Positions 19,793-64,000 of a DNA stretch of 64,000 nt are shown here, piece after piece (position 1 is the first letter of the stretch; every line of letters starts with the position of its first letter). The stretch is from NCBI GenBank assembly GCA_016188965.1, contig JACPGT010000010.1, positions 1 to 64,000 on the forward strand, written 5' to 3'. Origin of the DNA: Microcaldota archaeon. GTDB lineage: Archaea > Micrarchaeota > Micrarchaeia > Norongarragalinales > Norongarragalinaceae. The translations under genes were made by a program, and so were the position numbers. Below the pieces are notes generated by a model. The model was not told where the DNA came from. It was given only the letters and a program-made list of their open reading frames with translations, and ran no database searches.

Positions 19793-22700
19793 TTATTTGC
19801 ATTTCTTTCCGGAATCCATTTGTCCGGAGCAGCAAAAAGGCGCGTCCTTAGCCTCGCGCAGCTCGGTACCTTTCGAAGCACATACCCGCCTCGTGTCTTT
19901 TGCTTCAAGGGCAAAGTAACGGTTATAGGGAGAAGGATAGGGGCTCATATCCGGCTTTATGCCCATTCTGTAGCGCTCTAGCCAAGTCGTTTCCAACGCA
20001 GAATCCCAGAATGCTTCGTGCCATGCTTCGACGCATTTCCCGTTGTGGTTCCACTCTTCCGCCGGCTTGCCGTCGGTCCCGGCTCCACCGCACCATTTTC
20101 CGCCGGGGTTCCAGACGCAGCAGTTGTCGTGGCGGATGCTTCCAGCCGAAGTATAGCATATCCTTTCGCCGTTTTCTTCAGCGAAACAACCTATTCGGCG
20201 GTCGGTTTTCGTTTCTCCAGGTCCTTGGAAGTCTTTACCTTTTGATCCTTTGCAGCCCGGCCCGATGGCGCCGAAGCACTCTTCAATTTTTCCATCTCCA
20301 TTGAGTATCGTCGGTTCAACTTGGTTTGAGTAAATCTTGAGTTGGAATGTGTTGTCCGGCCTTTCCAAGGTGATTGTGGATTCGACGCCGAAATCCGGCT
20401 GGATCCCCCAGCGGACGTTGTAAAGATAGACGTGTTCGTCGTCGATGATCCGGAAATCGACCGGATTGCCGTCGATTGAAAGCTTGCGCAACGTCCGATA
20501 CTCGCCTCCGATGATGGTGACCGGCTTTCCGATTTGGTCGTTGTCGGCTTGGATTTTGGATAGATATGGATACGCCGGCGGCTTGGGTGTCGGTTCCGGT
20601 TCGCGGAAGAAAGGTTCGATGCCTTCGTTTCGGAAATAAGACTGTTTTTGGTTCAACAAGTAAGCTTCGAATTCCTCGACGGGTTTTTGATAGAATTGTT
20701 TGTGGTAGTAGCTCCAGTCGCGCATGCCCCGGATGAACGGCTTCGCGGTCGTGTCTTGGACGATGTAGTTGTACGCGGCATCATACTTGAACCACGACTT
20801 GGGTTTGTAGCTTTCCAAGTCGGGTCCGAACGTCTTGAGCAGGGTTTGCCTGACGATGCGGATGTCGTACTCCTGCATGAATTCACCGATTCCCGTATCC
20901 TTAAGGAACGAGTCCCAATTGTCCTTGATCCATTTTTCCATCTCTAAAGCAGTGCTTCCGCCTTTGCCCGAGCGGAATGCGGCCAAGGCATATTGGAAAG
21001 GCACGCCGTCTTCGCGCGTGGCGAATTCCTTCAAGCCAGGATAATCCGACCTGCCGAAAGCCCAGCCCATGGCCCGGCCGACCAGGCGCTTTTCCTGTTC
21101 GGGGGATGGTTTCGTCTTTACGGTGCGGTCCTGATTCATGTCAAGCACGCACTCCTCGTACGGGTACAGCATCCGGTCGATTCTCTTCAATATTGTGGTA
21201 CAGCCGGATTCGAACAGGCCGTAATCGCCTTCGGCCCCTTCGAACTTAAGCACGGGCGTTTTTCGAGTGTCGATGTCGGCGACGCATCGGTCCGCTTGCG
21301 GCCCGCAACGGATGGCGTCACTGTCCCGCGAGACGACCGTGCCCAGCCGCGGCTTGACTACGGTCAGCTTGTTGTAGATGGCCTTGTAGAACGTCAAGGT
21401 CACGGCCCTGTCCGCGTCCATCGTCAGTTTGCAACTGGCCGCGCCCAGGCAGCTTCCGGAAAATCCTTCCCACACGAAGCCGGCGTTGGTCCTCACGGAC
21501 AAATCTAGCCAGCTCCCGTGCTTGAAATCGTAAGTGCAGTTGGTGGTGCATTCGTGCAGGGGGATGAGTGAGCCGGGCTCGTAGCTGCTGACGAACAGGG
21601 AGCCGCCGACCACCGACGGTATAATTATGCTCAGTCTCTTGCGGCTGGGCGGCCCCTTGAAAACTGCGCGCACGCTCTTGGAGTCGTCCATGGTTACGGA
21701 GCATTGGGGTTGCTGGCCGGTGCAGGCGCCTTCCCAACGGTCAAACGTGGATCCTGCGGCGCTGTTCGCGGTAAGAACAGCTCGGGACTCGAACGGGTAA
21801 TGTCCGGCGCAGTTGTAGACTATCCGGCCGCTGCTGCCGCAGAAAATACGGGTGTCGCCTGAGTGCACCCATCCGTCGCCCTCGATGCCTACGCTCAACA
21901 CCTTGTTTTCCGGCGCGAAAACAGCCCGGACTGTTGTTGACGAGACGAAAAGCGCCGAGCCTTCAATTGTGGCCGTGCATTCCGTCCCTTCCGTGTTGAT
22001 GCAGCTGCCGCCCCAGCCGACGAATTTCCAGCCTGCTGCAGGCGACGCCGTCAGCTGGACATCGCTGAAGCGGGCGTATTTTTCCTCGCAATATCCGTTG
22101 CATTGTATTTTGCCATCCGAAGACTTCACCATGCCCTTGCCGGTGACTTGGACTACGAGGGGATAATTGCCGTCCGCAGGCGGCTTTGGGGCCGACGTGG
22201 GACGGGGGATGTAGGGCGGCGGCGTTGGAACCGCGCCTTCGCCCGGGGACGGGCTTGGGGTCACGCTTTCGCGTACGGGTGTTGGAGCTTCGGTCAGGCC
22301 GAACGACGCGGTGAGCTTTTTCGGTCGGTCAAGGGCGATTTCGCACACCTGGCCGTTGCAGTCGCCGGCCCACTTTTCGAATTGCGAGCCCGGCCGGGGC
22401 ATGACCTGGAAAGCGAACGAGGTGTTGAACGGGTACTTGAACGCGCATATCTTGTCGCTGGAGCCGCACAGCTCCTGGGAACGGCCTGAAGGCCAAACGT
22501 AGATGGCGCCGCTGCCGGGGCCTGATTTGGTTATTGCCAGCTCGAATTCGGGCAAGGGCGTTGGGGCGGCAGTTGCTTTCGGGGTTGGCGCAGCGGTGGG
22601 CGCCGCCGAAGGAAGCAAGGTGGCGCCGGGCGTAGGCATGATTGACGGGGAGGCAGGCAGCGTAGGCGAGGGTCTTGCTGTGGCGGTTGCAGTTGGTGAA

Positions 22701-23257
22701 GAACTAAGCGAAAAGATGGCGGTTGCGGATTGGGCCGAATCCATATTCACCGTACAGGTTGCTTTGGTGCCGGAACAAGCGCCTGACCATCCATCGAAGC
22801 GCGACCCTGCGTTGGCAGAGGCCGTGAGCGTAACTTTACTTCCTGCTGGGAATTTGGCCGAATCATAAGGCGCAATCTGGCCGATGGTGATGCCAAAAGG
22901 ATCCGAGGACACTGTGCCGGAACCGTCCCCTGCTTTGTAAACAGTAAGCCCGTATTCGGACGAGGTCTGGCCGGCAAAGGTGGCCGTGACTATTTTCGGC
23001 CCGTCCAGCGTCACGGTGCACGTCGTTTGGGTGCCGCTGCAGGCGCCGGACCAGGTTTGGAACGGGCCGCCTTGCGCCGTCGCCGTGAGCGTGATGGCCG
23101 TGCCTGCGTCGTAGGTTTCCATGCAGGCTGCGCCACACAGTATCCCGGACGGACTGGAGGACACGTATCCGCTGCCTTGCGTGATGACCGTGAGGGAGTA
23201 TCCGGCAAAGACGAGTGGGGAAAACGCGAGGAGGAACAACAGAATGCCGTGCCGCAC
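19793..23257 (-). CDS. Secreted protein with tandem InlB-type (WSGACSGT...) repeats, Pro/Thr/Ala-rich linkers and a Cys-rich C-terminal domain
   Basis: Signal peptide VRHGILLFLLAFSPLVFAG; repeated units like GSRFDGWSGACSGTKATCTVNMDSAQSATAIF; linkers PTATATARPSPTLPASPSIMPTPGA. Probable GTG start. Confidence 0.7.
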   Translation of the reverse strand: MRHGILLFLLAFSPLVFAGYSLTVITQGSGYVSSSPSGILCGAACMETYDAGTAITLTATAQGGPFQTWSGACSGTQTTCTVTLDGPKIVTATFAGQTSSEYGLTVYKAGDGSGTVSSDPFGITIGQIAPYDSAKFPAGSKVTLTASANAGSRFDGWSGACSGTKATCTVNMDSAQSATAIFSLSSSPTATATARPSPTLPASPSIMPTPGATLLPSAAPTAAPTPKATAAPTPLPEFELAITKSGPGSGAIYVWPSGRSQELCGSSDKICAFKYPFNTSFAFQVMPRPGSQFEKWAGDCNGQVCEIALDRPKKLTASFGLTEAPTPVRESVTPSPSPGEGAVPTPPPYIPRPTSAPKPPADGNYPLVVQVTGKGMVKSSDGKIQCNGYCEEKYARFSDVQLTASPAAGWKFVGWGGSCINTEGTECTATIEGSALFVSSTTVRAVFAPENKVLSVGIEGDGWVHSGDTRIFCGSSGRIVYNCAGHYPFESRAVLTANSAAGSTFDRWEGACTGQQPQCSVTMDDSKSVRAVFKGPPSRKRLSIIIPSVVGGSLFVSSYEPGSLIPLHECTTNCTYDFKHGSWLDLSVRTNAGFVWEGFSGSCLGAASCKLTMDADRAVTLTFYKAIYNKLTVVKPRLGTVVSRDSDAIRCGPQADRCVADIDTRKTPVLKFEGAEGDYGLFESGCTTILKRIDRMLYPYEECVLDMNQDRTVKTKPSPEQEKRLVGRAMGWAFGRSDYPGLKEFATREDGVPFQYALAAFRSGKGGSTALEMEKWIKDNWDSFLKDTGIGEFMQEYDIRIVRQTLLKTFGPDLESYKPKSWFKYDAAYNYIVQDTTAKPFIRGMRDWSYYHKQFYQKPVEEFEAYLLNQKQSYFRNEGIEPFFREPEPTPKPPAYPYLSKIQADNDQIGKPVTIIGGEYRTLRKLSIDGNPVDFRIIDDEHVYLYNVRWGIQPDFGVESTITLERPDNTFQLKIYSNQVEPTILNGDGKIEECFGAIGPGCKGSKGKDFQGPGETKTDRRIGCFAEENGERICYTSAGSIRHDNCCVWNPGGKWCGGAGTDGKPAEEWNHNGKCVEAWHEAFWDSALETTWLERYRMGIKPDMSPYPSPYNRYFALEAKDTRRVCASKGTELREAKDAPFCCSGQMDSGKKCK

Positions 23258-23271
23258 GTCGTATGCCCTCG

Positions 23272-24303
23272 TTAGCCGCCGTAAGTCTGGCCGAACTTCA
23301 TCTGGATCTGTCCAGGGCTCGAGACGATGGGCGGCCCCACGCGGTAAATGACCCACATGAAGTCGACCCGCGATTCTGATTCTTCGATGGGCCCGTCGTT
23401 GGTCTCGCCGTTCCACCCGTTCAGCACGAGTTTGCGCGTAGGGCCGTAGGACGGAACCCCCCACTTCTGCCAGTCGGACTCCTCGATGGCTTGGATGCTC
23501 CACGTGCCGGTCGAAGTGCTGAAAGTCCACGTCTGGTCGGCCCGGATTTCAAGCAACGTGGTGGCAGGGGTGTCCAGGTAATTCCAGGCGCCGGCATCGT
23601 AGTAGATCGCTTGGGAATAGACGCGCCATTTGCGGACGATTTGCGGAGCCATGGACGATTCGGCAGCGGGTGTCTGGGTGCCGGGGGTCGTTTTCAGTTT
23701 GAAGGATGCAGTCATGGCTTCGGCAGCGCGTCTGTATTCGTCGAACGTGGAGGATAACGCCGTATAGGTTACGATGATGGCGTGTCCGCTTTGCACGGAA
23801 ATGGTCTGCGCGTATTGGATTTTGCCTTCGGTGGATTGTTCGGAATAGGTGATGGTGCGTGCCGGCTGGCCGGAAAGCGTGGTTGCGGTTGAGTCGATCA
23901 ATTCAAAGCCGGCGGTTTCGACCGACTGCGACAACGCCGCTTCGATGAACGCATTCAGGTCCTGTTCGCTGGGAACGATGAGCACGTTGACGTTTTCCTG
24001 GTAGGTATCGTTTTGGCCGGTCAGTGGCGTTTGGAATATCGTGATGCCTTGCGCTTCGTTGAGTTGCCAATCTTGAGGATATTGGATCGTATACGCTTCG
24101 CCATCATAGGTCTTGTAATCTGAAATGCTCGTACTAGCAGCGGAAGCGCTATCTTGCGTGGTTGCGACGGCTTGCGATGTAATGGTCCCACTTGGAGCGG
24201 CAGTCGGTTGCGTGGGCGCGTTCGTAACGCATCCCGTGATGAGCAAAGCGGAAAAAACAAGCAGGGCAGCAAGTCGGAGTTGTGCGTGCATGGCATCAAG
24301 CAA
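23272..24303 (-). CDS. Predicted lipoprotein with PsbP-like domain
   Basis: Lipobox LLITGC after hydrophobic N-terminus; YTIQYPQDWQLNEAQGITIF. Confidence 0.6.
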   Translation of the reverse strand: MLDAMHAQLRLAALLVFSALLITGCVTNAPTQPTAAPSGTITSQAVATTQDSASAASTSISDYKTYDGEAYTIQYPQDWQLNEAQGITIFQTPLTGQNDTYQENVNVLIVPSEQDLNAFIEAALSQSVETAGFELIDSTATTLSGQPARTITYSEQSTEGKIQYAQTISVQSGHAIIVTYTALSSTFDEYRRAAEAMTASFKLKTTPGTQTPAAESSMAPQIVRKWRVYSQAIYYDAGAWNYLDTPATTLLEIRADQTWTFSTSTGTWSIQAIEESDWQKWGVPSYGPTRKLVLNGWNGETNDGPIEESESRVDFMWVIYRVGPPIVSSPGQIQMKFGQTYGG

Positions 24304-25335: not shown

Positions 25336-28300
25336 TCAAATTTTGATTTCCGGCAAGTCCTGCCGCAACGGTCCGGTGTATGCGTCGGATAATTCTTGAA
25401 GCGTGATGCTTTCGAATTGGCCTTCCAGCGTCTTGAACGTGACGGTGGTGTGCTTGCTGACGGTCCCGACTTGTGCGAACGTCACCTTGCCGTGCAACGT
25501 TTTTTCGAATGCAGCCTGGTTTTCCGGCGCGACCGTCACCAAGAAGCGGTTCTGCGTTTCCGATCCCAGCAGCAGGTCGCTTCGGGCCAAACCGGTTTTC
25601 GGCACTTTCGCAAGCTCGATTTCGGCACCTATTCCCGCGGCCAACGCGCATTCCGTGATGGCCAACGCCAAGCCGCCTTGGCGCACGTAGTACGCGGATG
25701 CGGCCAGCGGCAACGCGTCGGTCACTGCGGAAAATACCTTCTTGCTTTCAGCCGGGTCGACGGCGGGCACGGCTCCGGTTTGGATTCCGAACTGTTCGGC
25801 ATACTGTGAGCCGCCCAGCTCGTTCTTGGTCGTGCCGATGACGTAGATAATGTCGCCGGGTGCCTTGAAGTCGATGCTCCGAGTCTGCGCGTAATCGTTG
25901 ATCTTGGCGACCAACGAGATCAGAAGCGTGGGCGGTACGGAAATGCGGAACGTTTTGCCGTCTTTTTCGTACTTCAAGTCGTTCTTCATGCTGTCCTTTC
26001 CGGACGTGAAGGGGATTCCCAGAGCGACGGCATAGTCGTACATGCCTTGGCAGAGGCGGACGAGCTGGGCCAGTTTGTATTTACCGTCGGGATTCTGCTC
26101 GGAATACACGGAATCCGGGACGCAGAAGTTGTCGCACGCGGTCCAGAATGTGTCGTCTTGTGGAAGCTTGGCGCCCAATGCGATGAGTTTTCCGACCGCT
26201 TCGTTGAACGCGCAGAGCGCGGCCTGCCGGCTGTCAAAATCGCTGTACTTGGGGTATGCGGCTTGCGACATCGCGGCCGCTTCCCTTCCTGGCAGAAACG
26301 TGGGCTTGATGAGCGTCGCCGGCGTGTTGACTTGGCCGGATACGCCGTTGATGGGCGGCAACAGGGTCCCCCCTTTGACGTTGTGGTCCTTCTGCCGGAA
26401 AATCCACTCCTTGCTGCAGACGTCCAGCGACGACACGATGGCCTTGACGGCATCGGGAACGGGGTGTTGTGGAACCGTTTTCTGGGGGAATTGGGCCGGA
26501 CCGCGCCATTCTGCCTGGAGGCGCTTTCGAGGGACTCCCTGGTGCAGGAATTCCAAGTCCAGGTAGGCGATGGGTTTTTGGTTGTAAAAGACCTCAAAGA
26601 AGCCGGAATCGGTGAATTCGCCCAGCACGACGGCTTCCACGCCACGCTCTTTGGCCAGCTGCATGAATTCATCAATGTGGGCCGGAATGACGGCGAGGGT
26701 CATGCGTTCTTGCGCTTCCGACACGAGGATTTCCCACGGTTGCAAGCCATGGTACTTCAACGGGGCAACGCCAATGTCAAAACGCACGCCGTTGGATGTT
26801 CGCGCCATTTCTCCCAGTGATGAGCTCAAGCCCCCGGCGCCGTTGTCGGTGATGCCGCGCAGCCAGCCGTTGTCGCGGCAGACGGCCAGGAAGTCGAACA
26901 TGGTTTTCTGTGTGATGGGGTCTCCGATCTGCACGGCGGTGACGGGCGTGTTCTCGCTTCTTGCAACCGAGGACATGGTGGCGCCGTGGATGCCGTCTTT
27001 GCCGATGCGTCCTCCCACTTGGACGGCCAAGTCTCCGGGCAGCACGTTCTTTTCAGCCGAATCCCGGCCCGCGATTTTCGCTTTCATCAAACCGCCGGTG
27101 CCGCAGTAGACCAGCGGTTTGGCCATGAACCGCTGATCAAAGCATGCTCCGCCGTTGAGCGTCGGAATGCCGCACTTGTTGCCGCCGTCTCGGACGCCGG
27201 CGACCACGCCTTCGTAAATCAGACGGGGATGCATGGTGCGGGGCGGCAGCGGTCCTTCATGATGGGGATCGCCCAGGCAGTAGTAGAACTGGTTGAACCA
27301 CAAGTCAGCTCCGCCCATGCCCACGCCGGCGACGTCCCGGTTGTTGCCCACGATGCCCGTCAGGGCGCCGCCGTAGGGGTCCAACGCGGATGGGGAGTTG
27401 TGCGTCTCCACTTTGAGCGCGAAGTAGTATTCGTCGTTGAACTGGACGACTCCGGCGTTGTCCTTGAATACCGACACCAGCCACGGACAGTGGGGCGAGA
27501 CTTGCTTGGTCGCGCCGGCGATGAACGTGGGAAACAGGCCTTCAATGATTTGCGTCTTTCCGGTTTGGACGTCCTTGTATTCGATGATGGCGTTGAATTC
27601 CTTGTGTTTGCAGTGTTCCGACCACGTCTGGGCGAAGACTTCCAACTCCACGTCGGTCGCTTTTTCGCCCATTCCCCTCTTTTTGCGGGCTTGCATGAAT
27701 TGCGGGTCCTTGTAGTGTTTCTGGATGGCTTTGAGTTCTTCCAGGTTCAACGCCATCTGGCGGTACTTGTTGAGGATTTGCAGTTGCTCGTCGGAATACG
27801 TCGAAAGCGCCACTTCTTCCACAACGGGCTTGTGCGAGTCGGCCACTTTCGGGACGGTGGCGGGGACGCGCTCGCCGTCCTTGAACGCGTCCTTGGTCAG
27901 GACGATGAACTGTTCGATAAGCGGGTTGCCCAGCAACTGTGTGGCGATGTTCTGGCCGTCTTGCGCGGTTAGGTTCCGTCCTTTCTCTGCGCGGAAGAGG
28001 TACTGGGTGGACGAATAGACTGACGCGTCGTCCTTCAAGGCACGTTGGAGCACGGCAGTAGCCACTTGACGGGCCGTCTTGCCGACGGCGTCGGTGACGC
28101 CGGGCCGGAAGCGCTTTTCGATGAGCAGGTCGAAGTGGAACGGGTTTTCGGACACCCAGGCCTTGCGGTAAGCCGCTTTCTCCACGATGGGGTCGCAATA
28201 CGCTTGTTCGGCCAACTGCTTCAATTCGTCTGCCGAGACGTCGAAGTCCAACGAATACACGGACATGGAGTACGCTTCGGTCACCGGCAGGCCCAGCAGG

Positions 28301-28362
28301 TTTTGGATTTTCTTGGCCAAACCGGGCTCTTCGCGCAATCCGACTTCGATTCGATGCACCAT
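25336..28362 (-). CDS. purL: FGAM synthase with N-terminal PurS-like region fused to PurL
   Basis: N-terminal RPGVTDAVGKTARQVAT (PurS-like), then TWSEHCKHKEF, KVETHNSPSALDPYGGALTGIVGNNRDVAGVG, DNGAGGLSSSLGEMA. Confidence 0.93.
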   Translation of the reverse strand: MVHRIEVGLREEPGLAKKIQNLLGLPVTEAYSMSVYSLDFDVSADELKQLAEQAYCDPIVEKAAYRKAWVSENPFHFDLLIEKRFRPGVTDAVGKTARQVATAVLQRALKDDASVYSSTQYLFRAEKGRNLTAQDGQNIATQLLGNPLIEQFIVLTKDAFKDGERVPATVPKVADSHKPVVEEVALSTYSDEQLQILNKYRQMALNLEELKAIQKHYKDPQFMQARKKRGMGEKATDVELEVFAQTWSEHCKHKEFNAIIEYKDVQTGKTQIIEGLFPTFIAGATKQVSPHCPWLVSVFKDNAGVVQFNDEYYFALKVETHNSPSALDPYGGALTGIVGNNRDVAGVGMGGADLWFNQFYYCLGDPHHEGPLPPRTMHPRLIYEGVVAGVRDGGNKCGIPTLNGGACFDQRFMAKPLVYCGTGGLMKAKIAGRDSAEKNVLPGDLAVQVGGRIGKDGIHGATMSSVARSENTPVTAVQIGDPITQKTMFDFLAVCRDNGWLRGITDNGAGGLSSSLGEMARTSNGVRFDIGVAPLKYHGLQPWEILVSEAQERMTLAVIPAHIDEFMQLAKERGVEAVVLGEFTDSGFFEVFYNQKPIAYLDLEFLHQGVPRKRLQAEWRGPAQFPQKTVPQHPVPDAVKAIVSSLDVCSKEWIFRQKDHNVKGGTLLPPINGVSGQVNTPATLIKPTFLPGREAAAMSQAAYPKYSDFDSRQAALCAFNEAVGKLIALGAKLPQDDTFWTACDNFCVPDSVYSEQNPDGKYKLAQLVRLCQGMYDYAVALGIPFTSGKDSMKNDLKYEKDGKTFRISVPPTLLISLVAKINDYAQTRSIDFKAPGDIIYVIGTTKNELGGSQYAEQFGIQTGAVPAVDPAESKKVFSAVTDALPLAASAYYVRQGGLALAITECALAAGIGAEIELAKVPKTGLARSDLLLGSETQNRFLVTVAPENQAAFEKTLHGKVTFAQVGTVSKHTTVTFKTLEGQFESITLQELSDAYTGPLRQDLPEIKI

Positions 28363-28447
28363 GTAGATTCCTTTTACAAGGCCTTGCCGCAGCAAATGAC
28401 TTCCTTGATGCGGTGAACCGGTGGCGTTTTGGTTCCCGAAGCCAAGC

Positions 28448-28542
28448 TATAGCAAAGCTTGCATGTTTCACGACTATTTGGCAAGCTTTGCTAGATAGCA
28501 AACCAAGACTATTTAGTCGGGTTACTTTCTTGGTTTGCTATA
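28448..28542 (+). repeat. Copy 1 of ~95-bp TATAG...CTATA double-hairpin element
   Basis: TATAGCAAAGCTTGC...GCAAGCTTTGCTA-G-ATAGCAAACCAAG-[ACTATTTAGTCGGGTTACTTT]-CTTGGTTTGCTATA; two 13-bp perfect stems. Confidence 0.8.
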
Positions 28543-28595: not shown

Positions 28596-29729
28596 TTACG
28601 GCAGGAAGTCCTGCGACTTTATTTTTTCCGGCAGGTACGTCTTGGAGATGTATTGCAGGTTCTTGGACGAGAGGGCCTGGATTTCGGCTTTCAGCTTCTT
28701 TTCCAGGAACAAGTTGATTTCGCGCTGCCATTCCTTGGTCTTGAACCAGTCGTACGCTTTCATTTCCTGCGCACGCTTGATGTCGACCTCTTTGGCCTTG
28801 ATGGTGACCGAGGATAGGTCGTAATGCTCGATGTCCGACGTCGACATGCCTAAAAACTTCATTTCCGGACAGCCCAAGCGTTCCGACTCGTGCGCCAAGG
28901 CCATCGAGCCGTACTTCATCGTGCTGTAGATGTACCACCCGTACGGGTCCGAGTCGGTTAGACAATAGATGGGCACCTTCAATTCGGCGCTGATGCGTTG
29001 CAGCAACCGGCGGGCGCCGCGGGCGGCCTGTCCCGCAGTGGTCATCAGCAGGCACTTGTTCTTCTTCCAGTAATCGTCCTCGTTCAGACGGTCGAAGATG
29101 GCGTTCTTTTCGGCCACCAGCACGTACTCGATTTCCGAATCCACGAATTCGATCTGTTCCACGATGCTTGGCACGGCCCATCCGCCGGAGCCCATGCGTT
29201 CCAAGTCGATGGTGTCTACTTTGTCCCGCACGCGGTCCTTGACTTTGAGCGTTCCGGCCATGCGGCCTTTGGGTTCCGCACGCAAGTGCAAGCGTTCACG
29301 GAACGTTTCGAGCGACACTTCCAAGTCGACGATGGCGCCGTCGGACTCCTTTTGTTCGTCAATCGTGTCTTCCTTCGTGCCGGCGATGGTGTGTTTCTTG
29401 GCGTAGTACAGGTCACGAAGCGTGGCCGTCAAATTGTTGGCCAACAAGTCTTTCTTGACGTAGGAGGCCACCAGGAGCGTCTGCATGAAGCGGCGGGAGT
29501 GCGCGACGTTGAACAGATAACGTTTGGCGATCTTGTCGCCCAACATGATTTGTTTTGCTTTTTCGTCGTAGAACACGTTGCCCGAGCCGCGGATGGGAAT
29601 GTCCAAGTGGGGGTTCTGCCCGGCCTCGATTTCCTTGACCAGTTCCTGGCCCAACTCGTCGATCTTGATGTCGATCAGCGCGGCTTTTTCCTTTTGTGTC
29701 AAATCTTTTTCGTTTTTCTTGGCGGCCAT
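28596..29729 (-). CDS. top6A: DNA topoisomerase VI subunit A
   Basis: DLYYAKKHTI...; Toprim ...IYCLTDSDPYGWYIYSTMKYGS. Confidence 0.95.
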   Translation of the reverse strand: MAAKKNEKDLTQKEKAALIDIKIDELGQELVKEIEAGQNPHLDIPIRGSGNVFYDEKAKQIMLGDKIAKRYLFNVAHSRRFMQTLLVASYVKKDLLANNLTATLRDLYYAKKHTIAGTKEDTIDEQKESDGAIVDLEVSLETFRERLHLRAEPKGRMAGTLKVKDRVRDKVDTIDLERMGSGGWAVPSIVEQIEFVDSEIEYVLVAEKNAIFDRLNEDDYWKKNKCLLMTTAGQAARGARRLLQRISAELKVPIYCLTDSDPYGWYIYSTMKYGSMALAHESERLGCPEMKFLGMSTSDIEHYDLSSVTIKAKEVDIKRAQEMKAYDWFKTKEWQREINLFLEKKLKAEIQALSSKNLQYISKTYLPEKIKSQDFLP

Positions 29730-44350: not shown

Positions 44351-44462
44351 GGCGATGGTCGTCTAGCCTGGTTAGGATAGGGGACTGTGGTTTTCCAACG
44401 GCTTAGTGGTCCGTTGGCAAAGCAGACATCCCCTGACGGGGGTTCAAATCCCCCCCTTCGCC
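44351..44462 (+). tRNA. tRNA-His(GTG) with 37-nt intron at position 37/38 (intron 44391-44427)
   Basis: G-1 plus GCGATGG/CCTTCGC acceptor (one T-T mismatch), C73; anticodon stem GGGGA/TCCCC, loop CTGTGG|A; T arm GGGGG-TTCAAAT-CCCCC; intron contains CCAACGG/CCGTTGG hairpin. Confidence 0.85.
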
Positions 44463-53552: not shown

Positions 53553-53861
53553 ATGTCCGAGCTTTGGGATGCCTTCGACTTCATCGCGACGCTAATCGTT
53601 TTCTTCATGTCGTATTCGCGTCTGTTCTACCCGGAAGTCATCAACAACAAAGTCGTCGCCTTGTTGGTGACCATGATCGTCATGTTCGTCTTGGTCATAC
53701 CGTTTCCCATCGTCAAGTGGATCATGTTCGTCGGCCTTTTCAGCTACGGCTTCTTCTGGGGTTTCCGGCCGTGGGAATGGGGCTTCACTGAACAAGAGCC
53801 GGTCGGCGAGCAAGTGGGTGGCTTCGGTCAGCCCTACGTGGCGCACGAACACGACTTATAG
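53553..53861 (+). CDS. Small membrane protein; stop codon lies inside a TATAG...CTATA element
   Basis: 102-aa ORF with three hydrophobic segments ending ...VAHEHDL-TAG. Confidence 0.55.
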   Translation: MSELWDAFDFIATLIVFFMSYSRLFYPEVINNKVVALLVTMIVMFVLVIPFPIVKWIMFVGLFSYGFFWGFRPWEWGFTEQEPVGEQVGGFGQPYVAHEHDL

Positions 53862-53951
53862 TCGACCACGAAAGTAACCCGACTTAAGAGTCGTGGTCGA
53901 CTATCTAGCAAACGGCTCGAAAGTCTCGGCGGACTTTCGAGGTTTGCTATA
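53857..53951 (-). repeat. Copy 2 (inverted relative to copy 1) of ~95-bp TATAG...CTATA element
   Basis: Reverse complement: TATAGCAAACC...GTTTGCTA-G-ATAGTCGACCACG-[ACTCTTAAGTCGGGTTACTTT]-CGTGGTCGACTATA. Confidence 0.8.
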
Positions 53952-55666: not shown

Positions 55667-55760
55667 TATAGGAAAGCTTGCATGTTTCACGACTATTGGG
55701 CAAACGTTTCCAGAGACAAACTAGTCTTGATGGGTTATCGTTCTTTCTTGGCTTGCTATA
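55667..55760 (+). repeat. Copy 3 (diverged) of the TATAG...CTATA element
   Basis: TATAGGAAAGCTTGCATGTTTCACGACTATTGGGCAAACGTTTCC...GGGTTATCGTTCTTTCTTGGCTTGCTATA. Confidence 0.75.
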
Positions 55761-57952: not shown

Positions 57953-60900
57953 TTACCGGGGGCTGACGGACCACAACGTGTTCTTGCACGCATACGCCGT
58001 CGCATCCCCGAAGGACATCTGCTTGGAGTCCGAACACGGGATGCCGGGACTGGTCATGCGGATGATGTTGGATTTCAGCTCGGCCGCGCTGGCCGCCACG
58101 TCGCCGCCAAGGGCGCCAATGCCTTCCAAACCGGCGAATACGCCCCCGCCGCCTTGATCGTTCAAATTGACGAATCCCAGCGTGATGATTTGGACGATGA
58201 ATGCCAGCAGGTTATAGCTTTTCTTCTGGCAGTCACAATCCGAATGGCAGCCGAGGTCCTTGCGCCAAGTGAACGTCTGCTGTCCGGTCGATCGGCCCAG
58301 CGGATCCCAATGCTCCAGCGTCTGGTAGTCATAATGCACCTTGTGGTCGCCCTCGCAGCGATCCGCGAAGGTTCCCGGCTCCAGTTGGGCGAACACTTCG
58401 CCGCCGGGCGAGATGCCGTAGCCGATTCCGTTCTTGATGCCGTAACCCAAGCCGACCAACAACGGCACGCTGGCATCCACGCCGAGGCGTTTGGACGAAG
58501 GCGAGATTTTCAGCACGGAGTTGAAACAGCCGCCGAACTGGGTCGAATAGTCCGGATAGGCCAGTTCGCAGAGCTTGATATTCCAGTTGGGTTTCCGGCA
58601 GACGTCCGAACGGACGCCCAGGTAGTTCTTGACCGGTAGCTCCAAAACGGACGCCGTGGCGGACCAGACCTCATCCGAAGGACCGAAGGAGTTGGAATCG
58701 CGGATTTCATAGATGCCCTGGTTGGGCGCCAACGTGTCGTCGAACGGGTAGTCGCCACCCGGTCCGCAGCCGGCTACGGACACGATCTTGCTCAAGGAAT
58801 CCAAGCCACCGGACTGCAGTTTCGAGCTGACCACGTACGAATGGGCGAAAACGGGTTTGCCCTCTGTCTGGAGGTACGCATCGGGGAACCACGCGGCCGG
58901 CAGGAACGGCCGTCCGCGCGAGAGATGGGCCGTCGCGATGGTCACGGACGTCACCGGGCTTTCGTTGAGCCAGCCGACGAACGTCCGCGTGCTCTGCCCG
59001 GTGGGAATGCTCTTGACGCCGGAAGCGCTGCAGAGGATGGACGGATCGCAGTTGGGCTGGGCGCAATAGTTCTCGCAGCCGGAAAGGCAGAAGTTGGATA
59101 CGGCCAACTGGCCCCGCACACACGTGTAGCTGCCGCCAAACGCCGAGCCACCGCCAAAAGTCGACGGCGTTGCGGGGTCCAGGTCGTTCATCGAATTGAT
59201 TTCCGACGCGATTTCCGGATCGATCATGCCATTGCCGTTGCTGTCGAAAAAGCACCGCGGCGCGTTCGGCAGTATTGGCGCCGTGGCCGGATTGACCACC
59301 AGCGGACACAAACCGTTGCGGCAACGCTGCAAATCCGCCTCCGTGGCGATGGTACGGTACGTCACGACGCCGCCTTGCCGAGCGGGTTGGAAGAAGCGGG
59401 ACTCCTCGACGGCCATGATCTGGCCGGCGGGACATTCAAAATAGCGGTTGAGGGGGCTGCCGCCGAACGCGCCGGAGGTGCGGTGCACGGACAATGCCAA
59501 CGCCTCGCTGGGCTGCCATAGGCCGTCGTGGTTGGAATCGGCCACGCATTTGGGCGTGACCGTCGTGCCGCCCACGAACGTGTCGGCCGCGGAGGCGATG
59601 ACCAGCGGGCACTGGCCGTTGCTCTGGCAACGCGAAACGGATTCGTCCGAAAGCCGGGTCTGCGGGTTCGAAGGCACGTAATACGTATAACTGTTGCTTC
59701 CGGGCGTGAATTCGATAAACGCGTTGAGGGAAGAGACGACCAGTTCACAGGTGCGGCCGGCCAACACGTCGCCGTACCGAATCTTCTGTCCGCTGAGCGC
59801 GTCCAGCGTGATGCCGGTGCCCGGCAGGCCCAATTGGTTGACGTAGTCCTGGACGTTCGCCGGCCACATCGCGCGGGGCGTACAACGCTGGTCGCAGTTG
59901 TACACTTGGGCTCCAGCCTGGTTGGTGCACTGAAGGTACCGGCTGATGTGGGCGTCCGACGTCTCGGTACAGGAGGGGTTGTACGTGTTGTTGCAGAACG
60001 TGCAGGATTGCGTGGTGTACTGAACCTGGACCGTCTGGTTCTGCCAGTCCTCGATCGAATCACGGCAACAGCCGCCCAACGTGTAATAGGAAGAAAGGCA
60101 GGCCGGCGTCTGTTGGCAGTAGCGCACGGCGTTGTTGCTGCGCCAGTACGCCGTGCGTTGGGACAAGACGGGTACGGATGCGCTCAGCCGTTCGGCCACG
60201 TCCGTGCGCAAAAACGCGTTTTCGGAAAGCGATTCGGTCAGCAGCAGCGAAATGGCCTGCGCATACGGCGTGTCAAGGTTGAATGCCTGCCCTTCGGCCG
60301 CCAGAGCCAGGCCATAGCGCGAAACCGCCCGGATGGGACTAGTCGGCGAACCCCATTGGAACACCGGCGTGTTCAAGTCCGAACCGTCGAATGCCTGGAT
60401 GCCGGCGCCCGCCGCCGGATAGATGGCCACCACTTGCGTGCCGGGTCCTTCGAACGAAAGACCGAGGTTGGACGGCTGTTTGAACACCACCGTCCGTTTG
60501 CCCAGCTGCTTGAGGTTCGTCACGGCCCACAACTGGGGATAAAAGAGGGAGGACACTCCGGAGCCGGAACGGTAGAACGTGTAGACGGGCGAGAAGTACA
60601 GGCTGGAGTCGGACTCGTCGTTCAGCACGTGCAGCGTCACGTTGCGCCGAGACGTCTGATCGCCCGTGAACGAGAACTCAAGCGTGACTTGCGAGCGGGC
60701 CAAGCGGTTGCCTTGGACTTTGTACGCCGCCGGGCAAGTAGTCCGCAGTTCAGGGTTGTACCGCAACAGGAATTGCTGGCCGTTGTACAGTGTTTTGCCC
60801 AAATCGCTGCAACCGTATACCTGGCCGTTGGCCTCCAAGTCGCAGATTTCATAGCATTTTTCCGAGCCGTCCGTCATCGAAGTACGAGTCAGGATCTGGC

Positions 60901-63900
60901 CGTAATCCGGCATGGATACGTTCAGCAGGATGCTGTCGGCCGGGAAGATGGGTGAAACGCGGAAAGCCAAGTCGGTACAGCCTTGGCCCAACGTGAACGG
61001 GGGGTTGGATAACGGATCGTAGCGCAATCCGATGAAACCATTGCACGTATCCCAGCCCGGCGGGAACGGATCCGAGCCGTTGAGTGTGAAACCGGCGCCG
61101 CCCAACGCGACGGGACGCCGAAGAGACGTGGACTGGGCCCCCGCATCACGCGTGATGGTGATGTTGACAGTGCCCGTCTTTTCCGGGACGATGAACTGCG
61201 CCACGCCTTGGATGGATTGACCCCGTTCCAGGACGGCCGTCGGCGTCGACGGCTGCAGGTCGTACAGGGAAATACCGGGGTCGGTCAAGGCCCGTACGGA
61301 AATCGAGGCGCCGCTAAGTGCGGTGACGCGGAACGTGGCGTTGAGGAATCCGGCATCGCACTGGCGGGAAATGATTTGCGAAGGCGTGCAGTTGCCCGTG
61401 GACAACGCCTGGAACTGACCGGAGTCGGACAATTGGTTTTCCGGCTGGCCCAAAACGGCCTCCACAATGGCGTTCTGGTCAGCTGTCACGCCGAAGCCGG
61501 AAACGTCGAAGACGGCGGAGTGGACCAAGGGCGCGGAAGTGGCGTTCAAACCGGAAATCACGAGCGAGACGTTGGCCCGGCCCGCTTCCAGCACGCGGCT
61601 TTTGGCCACGCCTTTGAACGAGTATTTCAGCCCTGCGCTTTGCTCGTTGTAATTGGTGCAACGCGTCAGGTTGCCCAAGTCAATGCCGAACGACGCGTTG
61701 AGGACCCCGAACGTGCGGGCTTTGAGGCTGTCCTTCTCGCAGTTCAAACCCGTGCCCAACGGCGAAGGGCCCTTGATGGGCGTCGTGGCGTTGAACACGA
61801 CGATCCGGTTGGCCGGAGCCAGGAAATCCATGCGCGTCTCGTTCCCAGGACGGGAAAAGAACTCGACGTCGTAGAATACGAAGAACGGAATCAGCGCGCG
61901 GCGGTTGACGAGGACCTGGTTCTCGGCCTGGAAGTCTTGGCCTCCAGACTCCGATCCTTGGGCGAACCGCAGGGTGAGGCAGGCCTGGCCGTTGCACGTC
62001 GTGCCCGTGCTCTTGACGGTATAATTACGGTAGTACATGGCGGCAGGACAGCCGGATGGGTGGCTCTGGCCCGGCTGGGTCGACAAAGCCGGGTCGAAGG
62101 GATTGCGGAGGTAATCCGCGCCGCGGACGATGTAACTGCGGTAACCGAACGACAACACTTTCGTACGCGTCCGTGGGTCCAGCGCCATGTCCGGCTCAAG
62201 CGACACGTTGAACACGACGGAGCCGCTGGCCGCGCCGTTGTACCGCGAGTCCACCCAGGCGACGCGGTCGCGGGCAAAGTCGACGGCGGTCGGATAGCAA
62301 CTGTCGCCATAGGATCCCTTGACGTCGAAGCCCTGCGGGTCAAGGCCGGCAATCAAGGCGTCGTCGTTCTGCGTGTCCAGCACGACGCCGGATTGGTCGG
62401 CTTCGTGCGAAAAGACCTGCAGGCGCGCCAAATAAGAGTGGCCCGGCTTGAGCGAGCCTGAAACCGGCCGGTTCTGGGAGGTGAAGAGGCCGTCCCACTG
62501 CACGTACGTGTCAGCCAAGGCGGACGAATTGACCAGGTACAAGGTGACGTTCGAATCCACGCCTTCGTAAAGATAGACCGTGCGCTCCGAGCCGACGTAG
62601 CCATCGGCTGATACGTTGAACGTCACGTCTTCGCCGGAAACCACGGTAAGGCGGCAACCGTTGCCGTCACATTGGCCAACGGTCTTGTTGCCGACGCGCG
62701 AGGCGAACCGGGCCGACGGCACGTACCGGCGGGTGAGCGGGTCGTAACCGTACGCCGTGATGCGGAACGGCGTGCGGGCAATCCGGACATCCAGCGGATT
62801 GATGCCTTGGACCAAAGTGGCGTTGGCTTCGCCGCTTTGCTCATACAACGTGGCCCGCACCTTGACTTGGGCGCCGATGGGCAACTGCGCGAACTGGGCC
62901 AGGCCTTGGTGGTTCGCGGACTGCTGGTCCACCACGGCCCATGAACCGAATTCCGTGCGTTGTTGCAGCACTACGTCGGCATAGGCCGCGCTGGCGTTGG
63001 CCTCATCCGTGACGTTGACCCGCACTTGCGCCTCGTTCTGGCCCGGATTGGGACAGTTTTCCGGCGTGCAAGGCGGACAGCCCGAACCCGTGCAACCGCC
63101 ACCCCCGCCACTGATGGGGGGAAGCACGATGAAGACATCTTGTCCCCCTTGGAAAAGCGCGGAATTATTGGTGATGTAGCCGGGAGCCTGGGCCACGGCA
63201 AAGTAGGACCCGTTTCCGACCGTCAACAGAAGAATGCCGCCGTCATACGTGTAGTCCGTGTAGAGGACTTCCGCGCGATCCGGAACAAAGACAGATACTT
63301 CCGCGCCGTCGATGCCCGTGCCGTTGGGCGCAACGACGTGCACCCGGACGCGGTCCGGCGGTAAAGCACCCGTGTTGTTGCAATCGGCAACGCACGGTCC
63401 GACGTATCCGCCATTTCCGGCGCGCAACGTGACGGTCAGCTTGTTCGTGGCCGGCCGGATGGTCACGCCGGAATCGTTGCCGAAGTAAGGCGAATAGCCG
63501 GGTGCAAAGACGTTGACGTAGACTTGGCGGCCCACCGAAAGCGAAGGAACTAAACCGGAGCCTTGCACCACTTCGGCATCCGCGATGAAGCCATTGGTCT
63601 TGGCGTCGTACACGGATGCACGCGCGTCCAACGGGTTTCCTTGGGTGTCCTTGACCAGGACCAGCAGGCGGCCGGTGGCAGAATCGGAGTCGGCATCATC
63701 GTCGCAACCGTCGCCTTCGCAGAAGTTCCACGTGCCGTTGCCGTCATCTACTGGATAGGTCGGCTCAATCAACACGTCCGGCGTGGGCTTTCCGCCGGGA
63801 TATTCCTGGTTGCCGGGATCCTCGAACTCGGCGGCCAAAGCGGCGCACGTGCTCGCATCCATGCAGGCCAAATCCAGTCGCAGGACGGATTTGACCGAGA

Positions 63901-64000
63901 CATCAACCGACCCGTTGGCAGGCTTGAAACCGTTTTTTTTAGCCCGGACGGTAAGCTTGGCGAGAGGCACGTTGGAAAACATGGCGCGTCCGCGCTTAGC
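57953..64000 (-). CDS. Giant Cys-containing surface-type protein (>2000 aa, N-terminus off the right edge)
   Basis: One open frame to the window edge; no stop upstream of M at 63982 and no signal peptide there. Carboxypeptidase-regulatory-like units (RVHVVAPNGTGIDGAEVSVFVPDRA..., GRLLVLVKDTQGNPLDARASVYDAKT) and many N-x-S/T sites. Confidence 0.75.
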   Translation of the reverse strand, partial: AKRGRAMFSNVPLAKLTVRAKKNGFKPANGSVDVSVKSVLRLDLACMDASTCAALAAEFEDPGNQEYPGGKPTPDVLIEPTYPVDDGNGTWNFCEGDGCDDDADSDSATGRLLVLVKDTQGNPLDARASVYDAKTNGFIADAEVVQGSGLVPSLSVGRQVYVNVFAPGYSPYFGNDSGVTIRPATNKLTVTLRAGNGGYVGPCVADCNNTGALPPDRVRVHVVAPNGTGIDGAEVSVFVPDRAEVLYTDYTYDGGILLLTVGNGSYFAVAQAPGYITNNSALFQGGQDVFIVLPPISGGGGGCTGSGCPPCTPENCPNPGQNEAQVRVNVTDEANASAAYADVVLQQRTEFGSWAVVDQQSANHQGLAQFAQLPIGAQVKVRATLYEQSGEANATLVQGINPLDVRIARTPFRITAYGYDPLTRRYVPSARFASRVGNKTVGQCDGNGCRLTVVSGEDVTFNVSADGYVGSERTVYLYEGVDSNVTLYLVNSSALADTYVQWDGLFTSQNRPVSGSLKPGHSYLARLQVFSHEADQSGVVLDTQNDDALIAGLDPQGFDVKGSYGDSCYPTAVDFARDRVAWVDSRYNGAASGSVVFNVSLEPDMALDPRTRTKVLSFGYRSYIVRGADYLRNPFDPALSTQPGQSHPSGCPAAMYYRNYTVKSTGTTCNGQACLTLRFAQGSESGGQDFQAENQVLVNRRALIPFFVFYDVEFFSRPGNETRMDFLAPANRIVVFNATTPIKGPSPLGTGLNCEKDSLKARTFGVLNASFGIDLGNLTRCTNYNEQSAGLKYSFKGVAKSRVLEAGRANVSLVISGLNATSAPLVHSAVFDVSGFGVTADQNAIVEAVLGQPENQLSDSGQFQALSTGNCTPSQIISRQCDAGFLNATFRVTALSGASISVRALTDPGISLYDLQPSTPTAVLERGQSIQGVAQFIVPEKTGTVNITITRDAGAQSTSLRRPVALGGAGFTLNGSDPFPPGWDTCNGFIGLRYDPLSNPPFTLGQGCTDLAFRVSPIFPADSILLNVSMPDYGQILTRTSMTDGSEKCYEICDLEANGQVYGCSDLGKTLYNGQQFLLRYNPELRTTCPAAYKVQGNRLARSQVTLEFSFTGDQTSRRNVTLHVLNDESDSSLYFSPVYTFYRSGSGVSSLFYPQLWAVTNLKQLGKRTVVFKQPSNLGLSFEGPGTQVVAIYPAAGAGIQAFDGSDLNTPVFQWGSPTSPIRAVSRYGLALAAEGQAFNLDTPYAQAISLLLTESLSENAFLRTDVAERLSASVPVLSQRTAYWRSNNAVRYCQQTPACLSSYYTLGGCCRDSIEDWQNQTVQVQYTTQSCTFCNNTYNPSCTETSDAHISRYLQCTNQAGAQVYNCDQRCTPRAMWPANVQDYVNQLGLPGTGITLDALSGQKIRYGDVLAGRTCELVVSSLNAFIEFTPGSNSYTYYVPSNPQTRLSDESVSRCQSNGQCPLVIASAADTFVGGTTVTPKCVADSNHDGLWQPSEALALSVHRTSGAFGGSPLNRYFECPAGQIMAVEESRFFQPARQGGVVTYRTIATEADLQRCRNGLCPLVVNPATAPILPNAPRCFFDSNGNGMIDPEIASEINSMNDLDPATPSTFGGGSAFGGSYTCVRGQLAVSNFCLSGCENYCAQPNCDPSILCSASGVKSIPTGQSTRTFVGWLNESPVTSVTIATAHLSRGRPFLPAAWFPDAYLQTEGKPVFAHSYVVSSKLQSGGLDSLSKIVSVAGCGPGGDYPFDDTLAPNQGIYEIRDSNSFGPSDEVWSATASVLELPVKNYLGVRSDVCRKPNWNIKLCELAYPDYSTQFGGCFNSVLKISPSSKRLGVDASVPLLVGLGYGIKNGIGYGISPGGEVFAQLEPGTFADRCEGDHKVHYDYQTLEHWDPLGRSTGQQTFTWRKDLGCHSDCDCQKKSYNLLAFIVQIITLGFVNLNDQGGGGVFAGLEGIGALGGDVAASAAELKSNIIRMTSPGIPCSDSKQMSFGDATAYACKNTLWSVSPR

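Follow-up and report, generated by a model that had tools for sequence, protein, structure and literature searches.

The window, by which we mean the whole 64,000-nucleotide stretch of DNA analysed, comes from a Micrarchaeota-type archaeon and contains three loci that start TATAG and end CTATA. The initial annotation had their coordinates, ends, and lengths (95, 95, and 94 bp) exactly right. Copy 1 is flanked by a purL-like gene (25336-28395, minus strand) and the gene for topoisomerase VI A (28596-29729, minus strand). An ORF at 53553-53861 takes its TAG stop codon from copy 2. No other part of the window matches TATAG(88-100 bp)CTATA, and nor does any part of 20 Markov-shuffled windows. Coordinates of the copies, and of related structures, are in Table 1. 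Elsewhere in the window, a 111-nt Rfam match to tRNA (44352-44462) probably contains an intron; ARAGORN, in bacterial mode, reports no tRNA here. Two very long ORFs (57953-63982 and 19793-23530; 2009 and 1245 aa) weakly match carboxypeptidase-regulatory-like and Listeria-Bacteroides repeat models, and possibly encode surface proteins.

Table 1. Positions of the element copies and of associated hairpin structures. Positions without a prefix refer to the window; C denotes a contig, G a genome, and L a locus.
Feature	Position	Strand	Details
Copy 1, full doublet, TA-(91-nt core)-TA	28448..28542	+	covariance-model score 112.9 bits, top match in genome
Copy 1, hairpin H1	28450..28493	+	TAGCAAAGCTTGC / 18-nt loop / GCAAGCTTTGCTA; 13-bp stem
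Copy 1, inter-hairpin spacer (one G)	28494..28494	+	
Copy 1, hairpin H2	28495..28541	+	ATAGCAAACCAAGA / 19-nt loop / TCTTGGTTTGCTAT; 14-bp stem
Copy 2, full doublet	53857..53951	-	empty sites in G003 and G004
Copy 3, decayed relic, convergent genes on both sides	55667..55760	+	52.8 bits; ends intact
Arrays of ~4 small hairpins beside central G	G000 C4:97897-98006, C13:66638-66744, C17:143361-143475		L020, L028, L158
Arrays of ~4 small hairpins beside central G	G000 C1:371476-371537, C15:172-233		L194, L192
63-bp hairpin insert	G003 C7:33194-33256, C7:5943-6005, C8:128016-128078, C12:35254-35316		

Each unit of the element comprises TA, a first hairpin (H1, 43-44 nt), a single G, a second hairpin (H2, 45-47 nt), and a final A. 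The commonest form has 91 nt between two TAs. H2 is an inverted relative of H1, and the stem words AACCAAG and GACCGGC are found in both positions. The loops hold a CGAC/GTCG core; the stems vary. Copies read TATAGCAA, or similar. The outer TA is invariant (69 of 69 distinct copies) and the TATAG and CTATA ends are nearly so, with complementarity lost at inner terminal positions. Folded as single-stranded DNA, copy 1 has a value of -25.5 kcal/mol (z = -9.0). When reverse-complemented, copy 2 has the same loop as copy 1 (ACTCTTAAGTCGGGTTACTTT) and, as previously claimed, the stems differ by four compensated changes. In copy 2, a CC bulge makes the first hairpin quasi-palindromic, and 23 of 27 pairs remain. 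Two hairpins separated by one G had been described at all three loci. This is correct for copies 1 and 2 but not for copy 3, where 13 of 27 stem pairs are kept. Similarly, H2 is indeed a hairpin, but its description as a 13-bp stem with a 21-nt loop omitted the innermost pair; the actual values are 14 bp and 19 nt. Note that, because copy 3 keeps just these 13 pairs, we treat it as a degenerate relic whose 94-bp length provides no evidence of structural constraint.

To count further copies, as the initial annotation had proposed, we built a covariance model (R1) from those in the same genome (G000; 21 contigs totalling 1.37 Mb, completeness 89%). Since the element is nearly self-complementary, R1 scores well on both strands. 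Match lines number 76 in G000 (both strands), 48 in G003, 30 in G004, and 55 in G005. Of these, G003 (JACQQD01) and G004 (JACRGH01) are congeneric Candidatus Micrarchaeota MAGs, and were the only genomes matched in an exact-pattern scan of named genomes. G000 itself has approximately 40 copies: some 33 doublets, five long forms, and two solo hairpins. Solo hairpins flanked by TA are found at C2:15305, C3:481, and, in G003, C9:27417. Each of the three genomes of the genus carries the family, which also occurs in another genus of the same taxonomic family; R1 matches are absent from 7 of the 11 genomes searched at that level. For the order, 9 of 29 genomes have matches (E <= 1e-4). For the phylum, with stricter filters (E <= 1e-5), the figure is 16 of 301, and the distribution is patchy. 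Weaker class-level matches, in G037, G042, G091, and G126, begin TATAGCAAACCACGAAAGTAATGCGACA or similar, and look like a related branch.

In the long forms, which include at least five copies from G000 and several from G003 and G004, an array of small hairpins, approximately 110 bp long, lies beside the central G in either orientation. One long form gives a single-stranded DNA fold with z = -10.1. Pieces of the array hairpins also occur outside the element (L195, L196, and L199). Some H1 loops contain a different 63-bp hairpin insert (AAATGAAAC...GCATCATTT), which can also lie beside the centre. In the left flank of a G005 copy (L067, contig C3, ~1417-1500), the direct repeat TCTTCCTTGAAACAATATATATCAATTAATGAAAC occurs twice.

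Copy 2 is identical to the sequences at C17:111483-111577, C14:31669-31763, and C4:120685-120779. These four copies (on C17, C14, C13, and C4) are at unrelated places; the best flank identity is 0.4 or less. The same is true for a second identical group, of two copies, and further near-identical pairs also have unrelated flanks. Between species, one G000 copy is 97.9% identical to a G003 copy, again with unrelated flanks. For alignable DNA from these genomes, identity is mostly 65-80%. Hence, judging from sequence identity, transfer of the element between species is likely. With its abundance, recent activity, and occurrence in more than one species, the family offers a way to track gene flow and genome change in archaea that are difficult to culture.

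The initial annotation had suggested looking for TA target-site duplication and for empty sites in relatives; both were found. G004 has no element at the copy 2 site; in G003, a different copy lies a few bases downstream. Taking 93 bp (one TA plus the core) from the copy 2 locus leaves GACTTATAGCG. This aligns, without gaps, to GACCTCTAGCG in G003 and GACCTTTGAGT in G004. Likewise, the flanks of the G003 copy at C11:90295 (CCGAA-TA-TATCC) align gap-free to TGGATATATCA in G004, with TA at the junction. Finally, in a tandem arrangement (core-TA-core, C1:245841-246028), a single TA is common to both cores. Given the two empty junctions and the one tandem, we conclude that TA is duplicated on insertion. 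The copy 3 site is also empty in G003 and G004, with a spacer too diverged for the junction to be read, and, at the copy 1 site, G004 carries an additional gene and lacks the element. There is a mild preference for TTAA; T precedes, and A follows, the TA in 59% of half-sites. The REP-like or MITE character raised at the outset is supported, as are a repeat family and the existence of many further copies.

Our stem analysis used own-genome copies as the reference. Among these, double-sided changes are seen at 18 of 27 pairs, and 94.5% of cells are paired. No shuffle attains the observed values, and slid structures drop to 32-44%. The same structure, transferred as it stood to 25 copies from other species (recruited with the own-genome model, and hence independent in sequence but not in how they were chosen), is 94.1% paired. 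Here, 22 of the 27 pairs have double changes and the covariation score is 0.536, compared with 0.166 for shuffled controls and at most 0.139 for slid ones. Constant length and compensatory change had been offered as signs of selection on structure. The compensation stands, being far beyond the controls; for copy 3, the length is no such sign.

Does this constraint act on RNA? In a selected RNA, G-U pairs are expected more often than other mismatches. Across 65 distinct copies, the 1755 stem cells comprise 1643 Watson-Crick pairs, 24 G-T pairs (1.4%), and 88 other mismatches (5.0%). Since G-T is the rarer class, the constraint looks like one on DNA, not RNA, a reading that draws on general knowledge of RNA families. 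Strong covariation, and a mostly intergenic location, would otherwise suit a structured RNA with a host function, acting as a small RNA, terminator, or mRNA-stability element. We consider this highly improbable. Aside from G-T scarcity, the four possible gene-pair arrangements around clear-case copies are about equal (12, 10, 10, and 10; rough figures, obtained with a simple longest-ORF gene caller), close relatives have empty sites, and one copy is within a coding sequence. Furthermore, an Rfam search of the window matched only tRNA, and no family to the element. The sRNA family that the initial annotation had listed among its options is not supported, given the G-T count, the lack of gene-orientation preference, the Rfam result, and the good R1 scores on both strands. 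A small RNA or terminator was rejected because of G-T scarcity, indifference to orientation, and the empty sites.

Our search for a mobilising enzyme covered three Pfam families, in assemblies that are 71-90% complete. In the four richest genomes (G000, G003, G004, and G005), there are no matches to the Y1 transposase (Y1_Tnp) or to IS630 DDE_3. IS630 matches are confined to G014, G021, G024, and G025. For DDE_Tnp_1, G000 has a 224-aa fragment, and G005 and G023 have genes; the surroundings of the loci examined are without family ends. Within the scope of these incomplete assemblies, RAYT/Y1, IS630, and DDE_Tnp_1 partners were each rejected. A viral vector was also rejected: two motif scans of viral contigs gave chance matches only, none of which scored with the model.

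These results bear on two further explanations. The first is an ordinary IS-derived MITE (IS630-like or IS5-like, with a TA target), where the short terminal repeat is recognized and the palindromes are a by-product, perfected by template switching during replication or repair. The TA duplication, and the TATAG and CTATA ends, are typical of such MITEs, and scarce G-T intermediates would also fit. So would loops inverted between similar hairpins (L006 versus L001 type, and L013 versus L010), which suggest interaction between arms. Note that these inversions were seen by eye, and we refer to them only as alignment observations because they did not appear in a more stringent scripted search for loops that are exact reverse complements. 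Conversely, at several of the first 13 positions, complementarity of the terminal repeat is 17-45%, compared with ~94% pairing in the hairpins. Together with the absence of IS630 from the richest genomes, and of ends at the DDE_Tnp_1 loci, this makes the explanation improbable. The second, a REP or REPIN-type element moved by a Y1 transposase (RAYT or IS200-like) acting on single-stranded hairpins, is less credible still. The doublet does consist of two inverted hairpin units, as in a REPIN, solo units exist (L029, L017, and L076), and REP dimers with 1-2 bp spacing are on record (PMC3733652). However, the GTAG/CGTC tag is missing, Y1_Tnp has no match in the four richest genomes, and TA flanks both ends.

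The data show a repeat family with palindrome-preserving variation, TA-flanked insertion, recent spread, and patchy distribution. We favour, with a probability of roughly 0.75, a non-autonomous mobile DNA element: an inverted double hairpin that inserts at TA and would be moved in trans by a putative enzyme. The element, TA-(~91 nt)-TA, consists of two inverted 13-14 bp hairpins one base apart, with no coding capacity. Insertion into a TA dinucleotide leaves TA on either side. The hairpins, as extruded or single-stranded DNA, would be the part relevant to mobility, either recognized by that enzyme or regenerated during copying of the element. Hence, stem sequences would drift only as complementary pairs. 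We infer that the hairpins, and not the short terminal repeat, are what the enzyme recognizes. Copies that no longer move would decay. Copy 3, with intact ends and broken stems, is a single case, better explained by decay once movement has ceased than by selection at the site. Effects on the host would be incidental, with landing mostly intergenic and sometimes harmless within a gene. A bolder version, which we put forward tentatively and think rather unlikely, is a mobile system new to archaea. Here, the enzyme would read paired hairpins instead of a sequence, insertion at TA would generate a 2-bp duplication, and modules could be swapped, inverted, or nested, yielding 2 to ~6 hairpins per element.

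The copy within a coding sequence is in G005 (contig C44; L092:9951-10045). It occupies codons 619-650 of the RNA polymerase B (rpoB) reading frame, in an intein whose Pfam splicing domain is at 462-979 of that frame. The copy directly follows an LLGNLMGDG (LAGLIDADG) motif, and adds 31 residues in-frame with no stop. Related inteins can be aligned through the motif and are without these residues. Rickettsia palindromic elements insert in-frame into coding sequences. The likeness to those elements, which are mentioned in PMC10969869, is limited to this one case, and length here need not be a multiple of three (93 bp is added by 51 of 74 copies).

None of the papers searched was found to describe such elements in Micrarchaeota or in any other DPANN archaea. 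Comparison with systems known elsewhere reveals likenesses and differences in every case; hence, we do not file the element as a member of any. Like prokaryotic MITEs, it is short, non-coding, multi-copy, and dispersed, all of which were tested here, with TA target-site duplication and empty sites in relatives. An autonomous IS with the same ends was not found among the three Pfam families, in incomplete assemblies. Correia repeat enclosed elements of Neisseria also start TATAG, insert at TA, have a 104-108-bp form, and have no mobilising enzyme determined, which we count as a likeness (PMC2649163). However, our copies lack the CR inverted repeat, TATAG[CT]GGATTAA... (PMC2649163), both halves form separate hairpins whose stems covary, and the host domain is unrelated. 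REP/REPIN and GTAG/CGTC repeats share inverted hairpin pairs, solo units, and occasional intragenic copies (PMC3733652). Compared with these, stems here are at the upper limit, the target is TA, and there is neither a GTAG/CGTC tag nor, in the incomplete assemblies, a Y1 transposase. Mitochondrial double-hairpin elements are known from Allomyces and fission yeasts (PMC10085805 and PMC2800124, citing Paquin et al. 2000). They too have two adjacent hairpins, a mostly intergenic location, presence or absence between relatives, identity across species, and no known enzyme. Our element differs in its archaeal chromosomal setting, ~95-bp length, mutually inverted arms, nested hairpin arrays, and duplicated TA; for Allomyces, flanking duplications are reported lacking in PMC2800124. 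The present family is also a test case for how palindromes evolve as pairs, without G-T intermediates, a question that concerns double-hairpin elements generally. In short, the behaviour of the element is that of a MITE, and its architecture is like that of the mitochondrial double-hairpin elements.
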